Below, piece after piece: positions 2,581 through 7,310 of a stretch of DNA of 9,554 nt (position 1 is the first letter of the stretch; the number at the start of each line of letters is the position of its first letter). The stretch lies in the NCBI GenBank assembly GCA_030609125.1, contig JAUWCW010000053.1, positions 1-9,554 of the forward strand, in the 5' to 3' direction. The translations under genes and the position numbers were made by a program. The notes below the pieces were generated by a model. That model worked only from the letters and a program-made list of their open reading frames with translations. It searched no databases and was not told the origin of the DNA. The stretch is from JAUWCW01 sp030609125 [NCBI: Candidatus Rokuibacteriota bacterium]. GTDB taxonomy: Bacteria > JAUVQV01.

Positions 2581-3930
2581 ATGGCACTGCCAAAAAAACA
2601 TCGACGTCACGCACGCCCTCCCGGGAAGAAAGCGGGGTCGGACTCCCCCGCCCCTCCGGTCATTGCCGACCTCTCCATCGAAGCCCTCTCCTGGGGAGGC
2701 GACGGCGTGGGTCGGGCGGAGGGGAAGGTCGTCTTCACGCCCCTCACGGCTCCCGGAGACCGGGCACAGGTGGAGATCGTCTCCGACCACCGCTCCTACA
2801 GCCGCGGCCGGCTCCTGAGCCTGCACCACAAGGGTCCCGGCCGCACTCAACCTCCCTGCACCCTTTTCGCCGACTGCGGGGGCTGCCAGTGGCAGCATGT
2901 TTCCTACAAGGGTCAGCTGGCTGCCAAGAGCGCTATTCTCACCGACTCCCTTCTCCGGATCGCGAAGATCCCCCCTCCCGCCGGGGTCCTCCTTCTTCCC
3001 TCGCCCCGCGTCTACGGCTACCGGCACAGGACCCGCCTTCACAGCGGCCGACGCGGTGGCCGACCCGTGCTCGGGTTTTTCAAGACGGGCTCTCACGAGA
3101 TCGTCCCCGTCGCCCGTTGTCTCCTGCTGCACGACTCCCTCAACGACGTCCTCCGTGCACTCAGAGAGCTCATGGGGAAGCGGCCCTCTTTCGCCGCGGC
3201 ATTCGACACCGTCAACCTTGCCGCCGACTTCGCCGGTACGCGTATCCGGGCGACCTTCCGCGATCGCCGGGGACGGGCCGTCATCCCCCCCGACGCGGCA
3301 GTGCGGGAACTCTCGTTCCTCTCCGGCCGCGACGGTGCCGGCCTTTCACTCGCCGCTCCGGGGGAAAGGCCCCTGGCACTCGGACCCGGGACCGACGGCC
3401 CCTTCTCCACCGGCGACACCTTCACCCAGGTCAACCTCCACCACAACCGGAACCTTGTCCGGGAAGTCGTCTCCATGGCGGCCCCCGCTCCGGGCGAAAG
3501 AATCCTTGACCTGTACTGCGGCACAGGAAACTTTTCCTTCCCGCTGGCGGCGGCGGGATCCGCCGTCCTGGGAATCGACACGGCCGGCAGCTGTGTTCGC
3601 TCTGCCCGGGAAAATGCCGAACACCTCGGCTCTCCTTCCCCCGCCTTTCGAAGGGGAGGCGCCGAATCCGCCGTCGTCACCCTCGCAGCCCAGGGGGAGC
3701 GCTTCGACCTGATCGTTCTCAACCCGCCTCGCACCGGTGCGAGGGACACCGTCGCCGAACTTCCCGCCCTGGAGCCCTCGAGAATAGTCATGGTCTCCTG
3801 CGACCCGGCGACCTTCGCCAGGGACGCCGCCACACTCGCCGGCAGCGGGTATCGCCTCACGGACCTGCGCGCCCTCGATCTCTTTCCCCAGACCTTCCAC
3901 TTCGAAACCATCGGCCTCTTCACGCGGTAA
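2581..3930 (+). CDS. rlmD: Class I SAM-dependent RNA (uracil-5-)-methyltransferase, RlmD/RlmCD type
   Basis: Methylates C5 of a uridine in RNA, most likely 23S rRNA. The 449 residues begin with a basic tail (KKHRRHARPPGKK, 5-17), then a TRAM RNA-binding domain (about 28-83). Cysteines C93, C99, C102 (CGGC) and C180 form the RlmD-type [4Fe-4S] ligand pattern. The methyltransferase domain has FTQVN (281-285), the SAM-binding loop ILDLYCGTGN (308-317), NPPRTG (381-386), the catalytic cysteine C407 in SCDPATFARD, and HFETIGLF (440-447) with the likely general base E442. Two oddities: N381 stands where most relatives have Asp (DPPRxG), and residues 349-362 are encoded by a palindromic stretch. GAGG at 2573-2576 supports the ATG, though spacing is short (4 nt). 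The target position (U1939, U747 or both) cannot be read from sequence, so the gene symbol is family-level. Confidence 0.88.
   Translation: MALPKKHRRHARPPGKKAGSDSPAPPVIADLSIEALSWGGDGVGRAEGKVVFTPLTAPGDRAQVEIVSDHRSYSRGRLLSLHHKGPGRTQPPCTLFADCGGCQWQHVSYKGQLAAKSAILTDSLLRIAKIPPPAGVLLLPSPRVYGYRHRTRLHSGRRGGRPVLGFFKTGSHEIVPVARCLLLHDSLNDVLRALRELMGKRPSFAAAFDTVNLAADFAGTRIRATFRDRRGRAVIPPDAAVRELSFLSGRDGAGLSLAAPGERPLALGPGTDGPFSTGDTFTQVNLHHNRNLVREVVSMAAPAPGERILDLYCGTGNFSFPLAAAGSAVLGIDTAGSCVRSARENAEHLGSPSPAFRRGGAESAVVTLAAQGERFDLIVLNPPRTGARDTVAELPALEPSRIVMVSCDPATFARDAATLAGSGYRLTDLRALDLFPQTFHFETIGLFTR
3626..3665. repeat. Intragenic REP-like palindrome inside the RNA methyltransferase gene
   Basis: Interrupted hairpin within the coding frame: TCGGC (3626-3630) pairs with GCCGA (3661-3665), CTCC (3632-3635) with GGAG (3655-3658), and CCTT (3644-3647) with AAGG (3651-3654) around a TCG loop. 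The unpaired left bulge is C-rich. It encodes a low-complexity segment (SPSPAFRRGGAE) between the SAM-binding half and the NPPR motif, a variable loop in this family. It looks like a small palindromic element tolerated in frame, but chance GC-rich pairing is possible. Confidence 0.4.
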
Positions 3931-4238
3931 ATGCAGACAGGTCCCGGCAGGCGGCCGTTGACTCAGCCGCACAGGCGATGCTTCTTCGCTCCCTTCGCTT
4001 CGATTTGCAACCGCCCGGTATCCTCTCCGGCCCGGCAAGGACCGGCAGGTGTCCCGTGAAGCGGCTTAGCGGAGAGGCCGGGGACCCATCCTGGTGAGAC
4101 CAGCGGAGTCGAGCCGTTGGATGGGCCGGCCTCGGAGCGTTGAGCGAGCGGGACACCTGCCGGGCCTTGCCGACACGGGCGCAGGAAACGAGGGGCCTCC
4201 CCGTGCGGCTGTTGCATGACAAAGCGGCCCTGCGGAAG
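3931..4238. other. 308-bp convergent intergenic region without a convincing gene
   Basis: It lies between the stop of the plus-strand RNA methyltransferase gene (3930) and the stop of the minus-strand thioredoxin/TPR gene (4239). Open frames exist on both strands, for example 84 codons on the minus strand from 4217 to 3963, but they resemble no protein family and coincide with a large palindrome, so I do not call a gene. No classic stem plus T-run terminator is visible for either flanking gene. The palindrome itself, listed separately, could stop transcription from both sides. Confidence 0.7.
3964..4211. repeat. Large nested imperfect palindrome (repeat element or structured RNA)
   Basis: The outer arms CAGCCGCAC (3964-3972) and GTGCGGCTG (4203-4211) are perfect. 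GCCCG (4013-4017) pairs with CGGGC (4176-4180). The core arms 4033-4056 and 4149-4172 pair at 23 of 24 positions. Inside, CTTAGCG (4065-4071) pairs with CGTTGAG (4138-4144) using two G-U pairs, GAGGCCGG (4074-4081) with CCGGCCTC (4126-4133), and CCCATCC (4085-4091) with GGATGGG (4119-4125). The tip carries two small hairpins, TGGT-GAG-ACCA (4092-4102) and one from CGG/CCG at 4104-4116. The order is fully nested, as expected for one long branched hairpin. It could be a non-autonomous mobile element, a REP/BIME-type repeat, a small RNA or a bidirectional terminator. No family is recognised, and the transcribed strand is unknown. Confidence 0.7.
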
Positions 4239-5351
4239 CTACTTCTCCAGGAGTCCGGCGAGGGCGCGGTGGTAGAGAACGGCGGCGACTTCCAGATCAC
4301 CCTGAGAGTCGGCCACCCCTCCCAGCTCGTAGTGCATCCGCGGCTCGGCGGGGAGCAGAGTTTCCGACAGCTCCCTGGCCTTCAGGTACTCTTGCTCGTT
4401 CCCCTGGTACTTGTGCGCCAGAGCCAGCCCGAGGGCGAACTCCTCCCTCTCCGGGAACTCCTCTTTCAGCTCCAGAAAGAGCCCTTCCGCCTCGGCAAAC
4501 CTCCCCGCCCGCAGGCTCACAGCCGCAAGCTGGTAGGCGGCCTCCAGGTTCTTCGCGTCGAGCTCCTTCACCTTCCTGAAATGCTCCAGGGCCTCGTCGA
4601 GGCGTCCCGTCTTCTTGAAGTAGATGCCGAGCAGAACGCGGGGCCGGGTGAAGTCGGGATCCCTCTCCACCGAGACGAGCAGTTGCGCCTCCCCCTTTTC
4701 CTCCTGGCCCTTCTCCATGAGGCGCTTGCCGAAGTTGTAGTACATGAGGGCGTGGTTCTTCGGCTTGTACTCCTCCGGCGGGCGCAGCTCCACCGAGGTC
4801 GGCAGGCCGAGGGCCTTCTTCACCGCGTCGGCGAGGTCGCTTCGCATCGTCATCGGGTACCCGGCCAGGTCGAAGACCACCTTCTGCCTTTCGTCCACCA
4901 CGAGGCTCGAGGGAAGGGCCATGGCCCCGAAATCGTTGTAGGCCGTCAGCCCCTGGTCAAAGAGGAGGACGGCTTCCAGGTTCAGTTCGCCCGCCATTTT
5001 CTTCACCGCCTGGCGGTCGGCGCTGCCGATCTCCATGTGCTCGGCGTTGATGGCGATCACCTGGAAGTCCTCCCGTCCGAGTTCCCGGCGCAGGTTCTCA
5101 AGGTCCTGCAGAATTTCCCTGGAGCGCGGGCTCCAGGTGGCCCAGAAGACCACGACACTGACTTTTCCGGCGTAGAGATCGTCGCTCTTGCGCTCTTCTC
5201 CCTGAAGGTCCGGGAGGGAAAAGGCCGGCGGAGTGTCACCGCGGCCGACCCGCTTGAACGCCGCCGAAACGTCCGGCGTCAGGGCCTGAGAGAGGACCTG
5301 GAGGAAGACGGCCGCCAGCATAACCCTGAAGAAGCAGTGGCCGCTCCGCAT
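4239..5351 (-). CDS. Secreted thioredoxin-fold (TlpA/ResA-like, lacking CxxC) plus TPR protein
   Basis: This 370-residue protein has a basic, hydrophobic N-terminus (about 8-30) that looks like a Sec signal peptide or anchor. Next comes a TlpA/ResA/AhpC-like domain (about 36-182): PPAFSLPDLQG, VVVFWATW (66-73) and the cis-proline region ALPSSLVVD with P147. A C-terminal array of about four TPR-type helical repeats follows (about 198-370). The active site reads W73-S-P-R-S77, so serines replace both cysteines of the usual WCxxC, and disulfide chemistry is not expected. A binding, chaperone or scaffold role in the periplasm is inferred. ATG at 5351 has AGGAGGG (5356-5362) 4 nt upstream. It is the last gene of the redox operon, 18 nt after the DUF2339-like gene, and may help assemble or tether that complex. 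Confidence 0.82.
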   Translation of the reverse strand: MRSGHCFFRVMLAAVFLQVLSQALTPDVSAAFKRVGRGDTPPAFSLPDLQGEERKSDDLYAGKVSVVVFWATWSPRSREILQDLENLRRELGREDFQVIAINAEHMEIGSADRQAVKKMAGELNLEAVLLFDQGLTAYNDFGAMALPSSLVVDERQKVVFDLAGYPMTMRSDLADAVKKALGLPTSVELRPPEEYKPKNHALMYYNFGKRLMEKGQEEKGEAQLLVSVERDPDFTRPRVLLGIYFKKTGRLDEALEHFRKVKELDAKNLEAAYQLAAVSLRAGRFAEAEGLFLELKEEFPEREEFALGLALAHKYQGNEQEYLKARELSETLLPAEPRMHYELGGVADSQGDLEVAAVLYHRALAGLLEK

Positions 5352-5369: not shown

Positions 5370-7310
5370 TCAGTCTCCCCCGACGGCGGAGGCCGCAGCC
5401 TCCCCTGCGTCTTCGCTCTTCCCGGGGGGGGGCGCCTTCTGCCACCGGCCGAGAACGTAGGAAGCGGCGGCGGCGACAAATCCGAAGGAAAAGACGCTGA
5501 GCACCCTGGGGATCCCCTCCACCCCCACCAGGTCATAGAGGAAGACCTTCGCCGCGCCGACGAGAGTTATGAGAAGAGCCACGTTTCTCAGCTCGCGGTT
5601 GCGGCTGACGTAGGCGAGAACGAAGAACCCTATCGCCGCTGCGTTTATCAGGAGGGACTGGGCGCCCGAAAAGGCGTTGCCTATCTCTTTCCCGCCTCCG
5701 GTGCTGAGCAGGAAGTTGTAGACCCCGACACGGTAGAGGAAGAACCACCCCGTCAGTGAGGCGAACAGCAGTGAGACGCCGCCCAGGTCCCTTTTGTCGA
5801 TACGCGAAAAGACCACCGAGTCCGCGGGCGGGCTCTTCCGGCGACACCACCGGTAGTGGAGCAGCCCGACAACGGCTACCGTTCCCGAAGCGGCGATCCC
5901 GAGAAGAAGCGGCACGCCGGCCTGACCCCCGGCGAGCACGGCCGCCAGGGCCAGGGCAACGAACACCTGCATAAGGTAAGAGATGACACGCGTTCCTCCG
6001 CTCTGCCAGCGGTCGGAGATGATGGCCAGGTGAAAGGCCGACGCCGACAGCAGGGGCACGGCCGCCAGGAGGGCTCCCGTCGCCGCCGAAAGGGCCAGGA
6101 CGAGCAGGACAACGGCGGCGAAAGTGAAGGAGTTGAACTCCAGGGCGCTGAGTCTCTTCCCCTTGACCATGAAGGAAGCGATCCCCATGAGCGCGCTGGC
6201 CGCCACCACGCCGGTGACGCCGAGCCCGATTCCGCTCTCCCACAGCGGAATCGCCACGTGCTGCGCGGCGGTGAAGAAAACAAAGGCGCTCGCCGCGGGG
6301 GCAACGTAATCGAAGGCGAGCTTCCTCTCCCTGTGGATCCGATACATTCCGAGAAAGGCGCTGCCGAAAAAGAACAGGGCCAGCACCGCCACGGCGGGGA
6401 TGAACCAGTAGGGAAACAGATAGGGGCTCGGGAAATCCGGGTCCAGGAGAACAGCCTTGACCCTGAAGGCCCAGATCTGCATGACGACCCCTGTCAGGGC
6501 AAACAGGGCCCACCTCAGCCAGTCGCGCTTGAGGTCAAGCGCCGAGGCCAACGCCATGGCGTTGGCCGCGAGCAGCAGCACCGCCAGCAGAGGCAGGGAG
6601 GGAACGGGGAAATTCAGGGCCACCCCGGCCAGGGCCATTCCCAGTGTCCCGGCCACCGTCGGCGCCAGGCTCTTCGCCGTCCGGCCCGTGAAAGCCATTC
6701 CGACCCCTGTACCGAGCAGCAGGAGGTAGGCCGGCGCGGTGGGGAGAGACCCGAATCGCGTGTGGGTCTCTATGATAATGGAGAACATGAGCAGGGCCCC
6801 GGAGATGGAGAAGACCGGGGCAATGGAGCTCCCCTTCCGGTAGCGAAACCAGCCGATGAGCATGATGGCGGCGGCGTAGACCATGCCGAGAAGCGAGCCG
6901 ACGTGCTTTTCGATAACGCCGCTGTCGGTGACGGTGCGAAGGGCTAGAGCGACGACGAGAACGAAACAGAGCGTTGAAATCCGGGGAAGCAGGGCGCTCG
7001 AGCCGGCCCAGGCGACGATGCCGTCGGGCTTCTTCGCCGGAGACACGGCCTTTTCCGCAGCGGCCGCGCGCTCTGCCTCGGGGATGACGTCGGTTACCAT
7101 GGTCACCATGCCGGCGGTCATGGTCTCGACCTTCTTCTGCAGCTTGGCCACCTGGGCGGCAAGCTCTTCGACGCGGCGGTTCTCGGCCTCAGGGGCGACT
7201 TCCGTCACCATGGTCACCATGCCGGCGGCCAGCTCGCCAACCCGGTCCTGCAGCTGCTCGATCCTCGCGGAAAGGCCCTCAACACGCTGCTCAAGCGACT
7301 TGTCCGTCAC
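5370..7310 (-). CDS. Polytopic membrane protein, DUF2339-like, with N-terminal coiled coil
   Basis: 646 residues. Residues 1-83 are a charged, heptad-like coiled-coil region built from two tandem 37-residue copies (10-46 and 47-83), each containing AGMVTMVT. After a short linker the rest, from about residue 103 to 625, is a long series of hydrophobic helices, well over ten, with little else. A soluble coiled coil followed by many membrane helices is the layout of DUF2339 proteins, whose function is not established. The resemblance is by overall architecture and style, so the family name is tentative. The start is GTG at 7310, with AAGGAG about 7 nt upstream. The gene lies 43 nt after the NrfD-like gene and 18 nt before the thioredoxin/TPR gene, suggesting a role in the same membrane complex or its biogenesis. 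No cofactor-binding motif is visible. Confidence 0.75.
   Translation of the reverse strand: MTDKSLEQRVEGLSARIEQLQDRVGELAAGMVTMVTEVAPEAENRRVEELAAQVAKLQKKVETMTAGMVTMVTDVIPEAERAAAAEKAVSPAKKPDGIVAWAGSSALLPRISTLCFVLVVALALRTVTDSGVIEKHVGSLLGMVYAAAIMLIGWFRYRKGSSIAPVFSISGALLMFSIIIETHTRFGSLPTAPAYLLLLGTGVGMAFTGRTAKSLAPTVAGTLGMALAGVALNFPVPSLPLLAVLLLAANAMALASALDLKRDWLRWALFALTGVVMQIWAFRVKAVLLDPDFPSPYLFPYWFIPAVAVLALFFFGSAFLGMYRIHRERKLAFDYVAPAASAFVFFTAAQHVAIPLWESGIGLGVTGVVAASALMGIASFMVKGKRLSALEFNSFTFAAVVLLVLALSAATGALLAAVPLLSASAFHLAIISDRWQSGGTRVISYLMQVFVALALAAVLAGGQAGVPLLLGIAASGTVAVVGLLHYRWCRRKSPPADSVVFSRIDKRDLGGVSLLFASLTGWFFLYRVGVYNFLLSTGGGKEIGNAFSGAQSLLINAAAIGFFVLAYVSRNRELRNVALLITLVGAAKVFLYDLVGVEGIPRVLSVFSFGFVAAAASYVLGRWQKAPPPGKSEDAGEAAASAVGGD
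7062..7283 (-). repeat. Tandem 111-bp in-frame duplication in the DUF2339-like gene
   Basis: Residues 10-46 and 47-83 of the encoded protein are adjacent copies of a 37-residue unit, identical at 20 of 37 positions. The most conserved part, AGMVTMVT followed by (E/D)V-x-PEAE, is also nearly identical in DNA: ACCATGGTCACCATGCCGGC appears in both copies 111 bp apart (near 7095 and 7206 on the plus strand). Confidence 0.85.

Follow-up and report, generated by a model that had tools for sequence, protein, structure and literature searches.

A nested palindrome between convergent genes of a Candidatus Rokuibacteriota genome, probably one copy of a low-copy intergenic repeat

Introduction

The window considered here, i.e. 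the whole stretch of 9,554 nucleotides of Candidatus Rokuibacteriota DNA that was analysed, contains a long nested palindrome between two convergent genes, and the question raised by this locus is whether such a rod-forming sequence represents a structured RNA, a terminator, a repetitive element or merely chance. To our knowledge, the phylum has almost no sequenced members. We consider the palindrome, with a probability of about 0.7, to be one copy of a low-copy, non-autonomous palindromic intergenic repeat that is MITE- or YPAL-like and made of two inverted units, as in BIMEs. The features are as follows, with C82, C245 and C265 denoting places in other contigs of the same genome.

2581-3930, plus strand: upstream convergent gene with TRAM and tRNA_U5-meth_tr domains, an RlmD/RumA-like methyltransferase
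3964-4211, no strand: nested imperfect palindrome, whole element; rod fold with RNA and DNA parameters
3964-3972, plus strand: left outer arm, perfect complement of 4203-4211 (9/9)
4021-4090, minus strand: left repeat unit; 24-nt block as in the other copies, inner part as on the left side of C245 only
4033-4056, plus strand: left core arm, 23/24 complementary to 4149-4172
4064-4071, plus strand: left side of the G-U-containing stem, partner 4138-4145
4092-4118, plus strand: tip; homologous sequence in C245, with about 37 nt extra there
4119-4188, plus strand: right repeat unit, recurring at C82, C245 and C265
4138-4145, plus strand: right side of the G-U-containing stem, partner 4064-4071
4149-4172, plus strand: right core arm, partner of 4033-4056
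4203-4211, plus strand: right outer arm, perfect complement of 3964-3972
4239-5351, minus strand: downstream convergent gene for an AhpC-TSA/Redoxin and TPR protein (thioredoxin/TPR)

Architecture and position of the palindrome

The nested palindrome was borne out as the first-pass annotation had described it, with outer arms pairing at 9/9 positions, core arms at 23/24 and a G-U-containing stem, and the predicted fold contains further nested stems at 4074-4081/4126-4133 and 4085-4091/4119-4125. The element consists of two inverted units of about 70 bp that flank the 27-nt tip. A two-hairpin tip, which had also been claimed, appeared in the fold with DNA parameters, whereas the RNA minimum-energy fold is a single rod without it; on these models, the branched tip is one of two alternative folds. 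The convergent intergenic location was likewise confirmed, with the two genes stopping at 3930 and 4239 and leaving a gap of 308 bp between the rlmD-like and the thioredoxin/TPR gene, most of which is occupied by the palindrome. Elsewhere in the window, a DUF2339 gene carries an internal 50-bp duplication (7071-7120 and 7182-7231, 84% identity), in which a repeated TAGMVTMVT..PEAE is encoded.

Strength of the fold

As RNA, the plus strand of the element folds at -150.8 kcal/mol (z -6.9 against dinucleotide shuffles) and the minus strand at -141.8 kcal/mol (z -5.7), with 0/200 shuffles as good in either case, and the DNA-parameter fold of the plus strand gives a z of -5.9. In a sample of 363 kb, comprising the window and 40 stretches of the same genome, the two lowest fold energies among 5,718 segments of 248 nt both belong to the element, and its core ranks second among the inverted repeats listed. 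The best inverted repeat of the window scores 21, compared with at most 15 across 300 first-order Markov simulations (spacer <=250). An origin as a chance GC-rich palindrome would be compatible with the observation that other GC-rich segments of the sample come within 3 kcal/mol of the element, its absolute fold energy thus being nearly matched; however, the z of -6.9 and the arm score speak against it, and it is refuted by the existence of repeat copies elsewhere in the genome. The fallback of the first-pass annotation, a chance palindrome should no homologues be found, was overtaken by homologues at three further places of the own genome, and its probability is practically nil.

Partial copies at other intergenic places

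Searching the own genome (2.3 Mb, 376 contigs) recovered three partial copies, namely C82:1300-1354 (91% identity, E 3e-14) between divergent genes, C245:1225-1294 (80% identity, E 4e-10) between convergent genes, and C265:560-601 (88% identity, E 1e-7) between a permease gene and a tRNA-Leu gene, the latter of which was confirmed at L118:685-769. All four places, including that in the window, are intergenic according to a simple gene caller, which provided the gene positions for the intergenic calls and for the gap counts given below. An arm profile built from five arms, i.e. the two arms of the window and those of C82, C245 and C265, recovers its five members, by construction, at E 1.3e-11 or better, including the left unit of the window (45.6 bits, itself a profile member), and the next matches have an E of 0.037. 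The best two matches below the members, in C79 and C337, lie inside long ORFs and were rejected; 11 weaker matches in the genome range from E 0.1 to 4, and a weak match at window 3941-3976 (E 0.1) was taken as chance. A 15-base segment of the arm was found at 48 places when up to two mismatches were allowed, with 20 expected from a backward control.

The proposal that the palindrome is a repetitive element, such as a MITE or a REP/BIME relative, is supported by these partial intergenic copies at three places and by the other long palindromic repeats that the genome holds. Many dispersed copies would, according to the first-pass annotation, support a repeat element; repeat copies are present at three other intergenic places but are only partial and of low copy number. 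The idea of a recent mobile element found no support, given that the matched parts are only 80-91% identical, that no target-site duplication was recognised and that only four places are known. Inspection by eye around the presumed ends of the window element recognised neither a target-site duplication nor a common end.

Comparison of arms and copies

A block of 24 nt is common to all five arms (17-23/24 in pairwise comparison). In the 19 nt next to it, the right arms of the window, C82 and C245 resemble one another (14-18/19), and C265 (9-10/19) and the left arm of the window (6-9/19) differ from them. Since the window's own two arms are alike in the block (23/24) but not in the adjoining part (7/19), the element is readable as two inverted units. 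All three other copies keep the right-hand block, the left side being lost or blurred. C265 fits the right arm of the window better than the left (score 63 versus 45), is without the inner segment of the right arm (10/19) and retains only the block and its outer neighbour, and C82 has lost all that lies to the left of the right inner stem. Neither C82 nor C265 shows a trace of the tip or the left side, 682/1000 and 229/1000 simulations, respectively, being as good. C245 is without the left outer block and keeps, outside its blastn match, the left-inner arm and the tip, with 0/1000 Markov simulations of the tip-side stretch being as good.

The window and C245 were compared through a pairwise alignment, checked by simulation, which replaced a MAFFT alignment that had misplaced the left arm. 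The 64 pairs of the window fold are distributed in C245 over 25 that are unchanged, 25 that fall on gaps and 14 that are changed, and among the latter 11 are broken, 3 are kept via a one-sided change and none is compensated. The C245 stretch itself folds with a z of -0.67, and 48/200 shuffles were as good. Given that the changed pairs of C245 are mostly broken, with no compensation and a fold no better than that of shuffles, the rod is not maintained within the family. As C82 and C265 are without tip or left side, only the window copy and the decayed C245 copy speak for a palindromic element, and the window copy alone still forms a long rod. The family as a whole has dispersed and decayed.

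The window element can thus be seen as an old two-armed element, of which the other copies lost one arm, or as a unit whose partner was locally made or mended by template switching. The latter would be part of an account without mobility, in which an old dispersed fragment acquired its inverted partner through local inverted duplication or quasi-palindrome correction (template switch). The patch-like agreement of the arms, high in the block and low beside it, and the fact that none of C245, C82 and C265 showed a matching left block are supportive of this account, and template switching is described in passages of two papers as homogenising the arms of inverted repeats or maintaining hairpins (PMC8604942, PMC8794818). 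However, the left block has 22/24 matches to both C82 and C265, and the right block scarcely more (22/24 and 23/24, respectively), so that both blocks could be old, and the dispersal itself would be left unexplained. We regard such a local origin as quite improbable.

RNA gene or terminator

A structured RNA, or a bidirectional 3'-end or terminator hairpin, that is selected at this convergent gene pair would agree with the convergent position and the occupation of most of the gap, with the lowest fold energy of the 363-kb sample, with a plus strand that folds better than the minus strand and contains G-U pairs, and with the location of the C245 copy, likewise between convergent genes. Against this reading, 0 T-run terminators were found at 3850-4350 on both strands (0.5 expected by chance), and Rfam 15 gave 0 matches in the window at gathering score, in line with the earlier remark that no known RNA family was recognised, with only unrelated matches below threshold (E up to 10), at E 0.99 or worse. 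In addition, the pairs changed in C245 are broken in 11/14 cases and compensated in none, and C82 and C265 have one arm only and lie between divergent genes and between permease and tRNA-Leu genes, respectively. Among 24 convergent gene pairs in the sample, 6 have gaps longer than the 308 bp of the window and 12 have gaps of <=38 nt, and convergent pairs in this genome thus do not generally require a hairpin of this sort. The selected RNA fold suggested in the first-pass annotation was thus not upheld, with no compensatory change in the single pairwise comparison with C245, in which 25/64 pairs fall on gaps, and with no second arm in C82 and C265. As such, we consider a selected RNA or terminator unlikely, and the window copy could still have a function peculiar to it. 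No promoter-like sites were found at 3850-4350. An integron attC reading, suggested by a GTTRRRY-like stretch, was dropped by inspection, since this motif is short and lies away from the ends.

The one-sided shortening of the copies would also agree with a structured RNA returning to the genome as 5'-truncated copies, or with a single-strand hairpin that serves as substrate of a transposase acting in trans; both remain very speculative suggestions with little probability.

Likeness to known repeat classes

Returning to the preferred reading of an intergenic repeat, YPAL/RU-2 of Yersinia comes closest among described systems, MITEs and BIMEs being more distantly similar in type, with no claim of sequence kinship to any of them. 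YPAL, of about 168 bp, resembles the window element in size class, internal inverted repeats, a composition that is not A+T-rich and intergenic location; passages of one paper describe these last three traits along with target-site duplications and filled and empty sites (PMC2229807), and a table of another lists it as intergenic and 168 bp long, with 101 sequences, 68 of them complete, in its Y. pestis row (PMC2267715). Unlike YPAL with its 101 sequences, target duplications and filled/empty sites, the window family is known from four places, with no such duplication or site pair recognised. Bacterial MITEs, namely NEMIS/Correia, ERIC/RU-1 and RUP, are short, dispersed, self-complementary and mostly intergenic, as outlined in passages of PMC2229807, and so is the window element, but its inverted arms are not clearly terminal and lack TA ends, and neither a target-site duplication nor, at the two Y1 transposase loci searched, a parent transposon was recognised. 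Of the hallmarks of MITEs and YPAL, dispersed copies at unrelated places are thus present, at four places including the window and hence at low copy number, and inverted repeats that form a long hairpin are present in the window copy only.

REP/BIME elements resemble the window element as inverted, extragenic pairs of units located between convergent genes, sites for which REPs have a preference according to an excerpt of PMC1525189. However, REP units are given as 20-40 bp and high copy in a section of PMC3733652, and as more than 100 per genome in a section of PMC2817692, whereas the unit here is about 70 bp and found at four places. The proposed REP/BIME relationship therefore stands as far as inverted, extragenic units are concerned, but unit size and copy number rule out strict membership. 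Two matches to Y1/RAYT-type transposases occur in the genome, of which one has an open frame and the other an internal stop; the arm profile had no match at these two loci, L136 and L137 (2.1 and 2.0 kb examined), and hence no linkage to a RAYT was found.

Other palindromes and repeats of the genome

Several unrelated palindromic repeats occur in this genome, and the window family is a modest one among them. A family of 190 bp, palindromic over its whole length, is present at L106:1931-2121 (C182) and at 14 other places, giving 15 near-full copies with 81-100% identity; it has conserved CTTAGGGCTCACGCAAGAATAACTTC-like terminal inverted repeats, folds as a rod and is intergenic at both places checked. 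It is thus like the window element in being a whole-length nested palindrome with a rod fold and intergenic location, and unlike it in its 15 near-full copies and conserved terminal inverted repeats, with no sequence match between the two in the searches made. In 3/12 copies read (L141, L144 and L146), this family shows CTWAG at both ends in direct orientation. Compared with the reference fold, the 12 copies contain 13 pair-cells that changed on both sides and still pair and 6 that stay paired after changing on one side; pairing is broken by 46 one-sided and 7 two-sided changes.

A further dispersed repeat, about 180 bp long and with 92-95% identity, lies at L097:7369-7546, L113:556-735, L129:3831-4010 and L106:1773-1937; it is largely intergenic, with 28 nt of ORF overlap in L106, where it abuts the 190-bp palindrome. 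The GGGGTCAGG-type repeat forms a perfect 22-bp inverted pair at L112:2357-2419 and recurs at the 3' end of the open-frame Y1/RAYT-type gene. This gene is located at L136:877-1863; a GGGGTCAGGCACTGAAACGTGA repeat overlaps the gene at the 3' end, and upstream of the gene lies a fragment of the 190-bp palindrome (coordinates listed for the locus: 877-1863, 873 and 2065-2132). A 165-bp palindrome at L118:2775-2939, with 17-bp perfect ends and no other copy in the genome, shares contig C265 with one partial copy of the window element. A hairpin at L116:1209-1277 (GTCATTCC...GGAATCT / AGATCCCTCGG...GGGACGACA), directly upstream of the C82 copy, presumably resembles a widespread intergenic repeat. 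In addition, a cobalamin riboswitch was found at L097:18874-19048 (62 bits).

Searches outside the genome

In the one genome of the phylum that was examined for comparison, no match to the element was found; at rlmD, identity to this phylum-mate is about 49% over the matched part, which is too distant for an empty site to be recognised, and relatives of the thioredoxin/TPR gene are on other contigs there. A further 384 genomes gave no convincing match. Among 60 genomes, including the own, one other had a weak 29-bp match, and among 386, again including the own, two others had weak matches of 23-29 bp, in a less sensitive search that scored at most two candidates per genome and did not recover the C245 and C265 copies. 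An exact 20-base pattern was found in two stretches of genome contigs, from an alphaproteobacterial MAG and from Streptomyces, which were taken as chance, and in none of the viral contigs; the plasmids and phages searched had no match to the element.

Proposed origin and significance

If the palindrome is a low-copy repeat as we propose, it might have spread at a low level, mobilised in trans by a transposase, and come to rest between convergent genes, an insertion site at which it would be harmless. Its present effect would then be passive, namely that of a GC-rich hairpin at the 3' end of both transcripts, which may hinder 3' exonucleases or polymerase. This proposal has to be weighed against a family of only four places, three of them partial, no visible target-site duplication or common end, no arm match around the two Y1 transposase matches, and a palindromic nature for which the window copy and the decayed C245 copy are the witnesses.

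The element is of a known kind, its novelty being that of a low-copy family in a phylum that has been little sampled. The finding would be of greater significance only if the one-sidedly shortened copies were products of RNA-based mobility. A striking palindrome in a little-known lineage is here best read as repeat debris, and this reading guards against the annotation of such rods as RNA genes.
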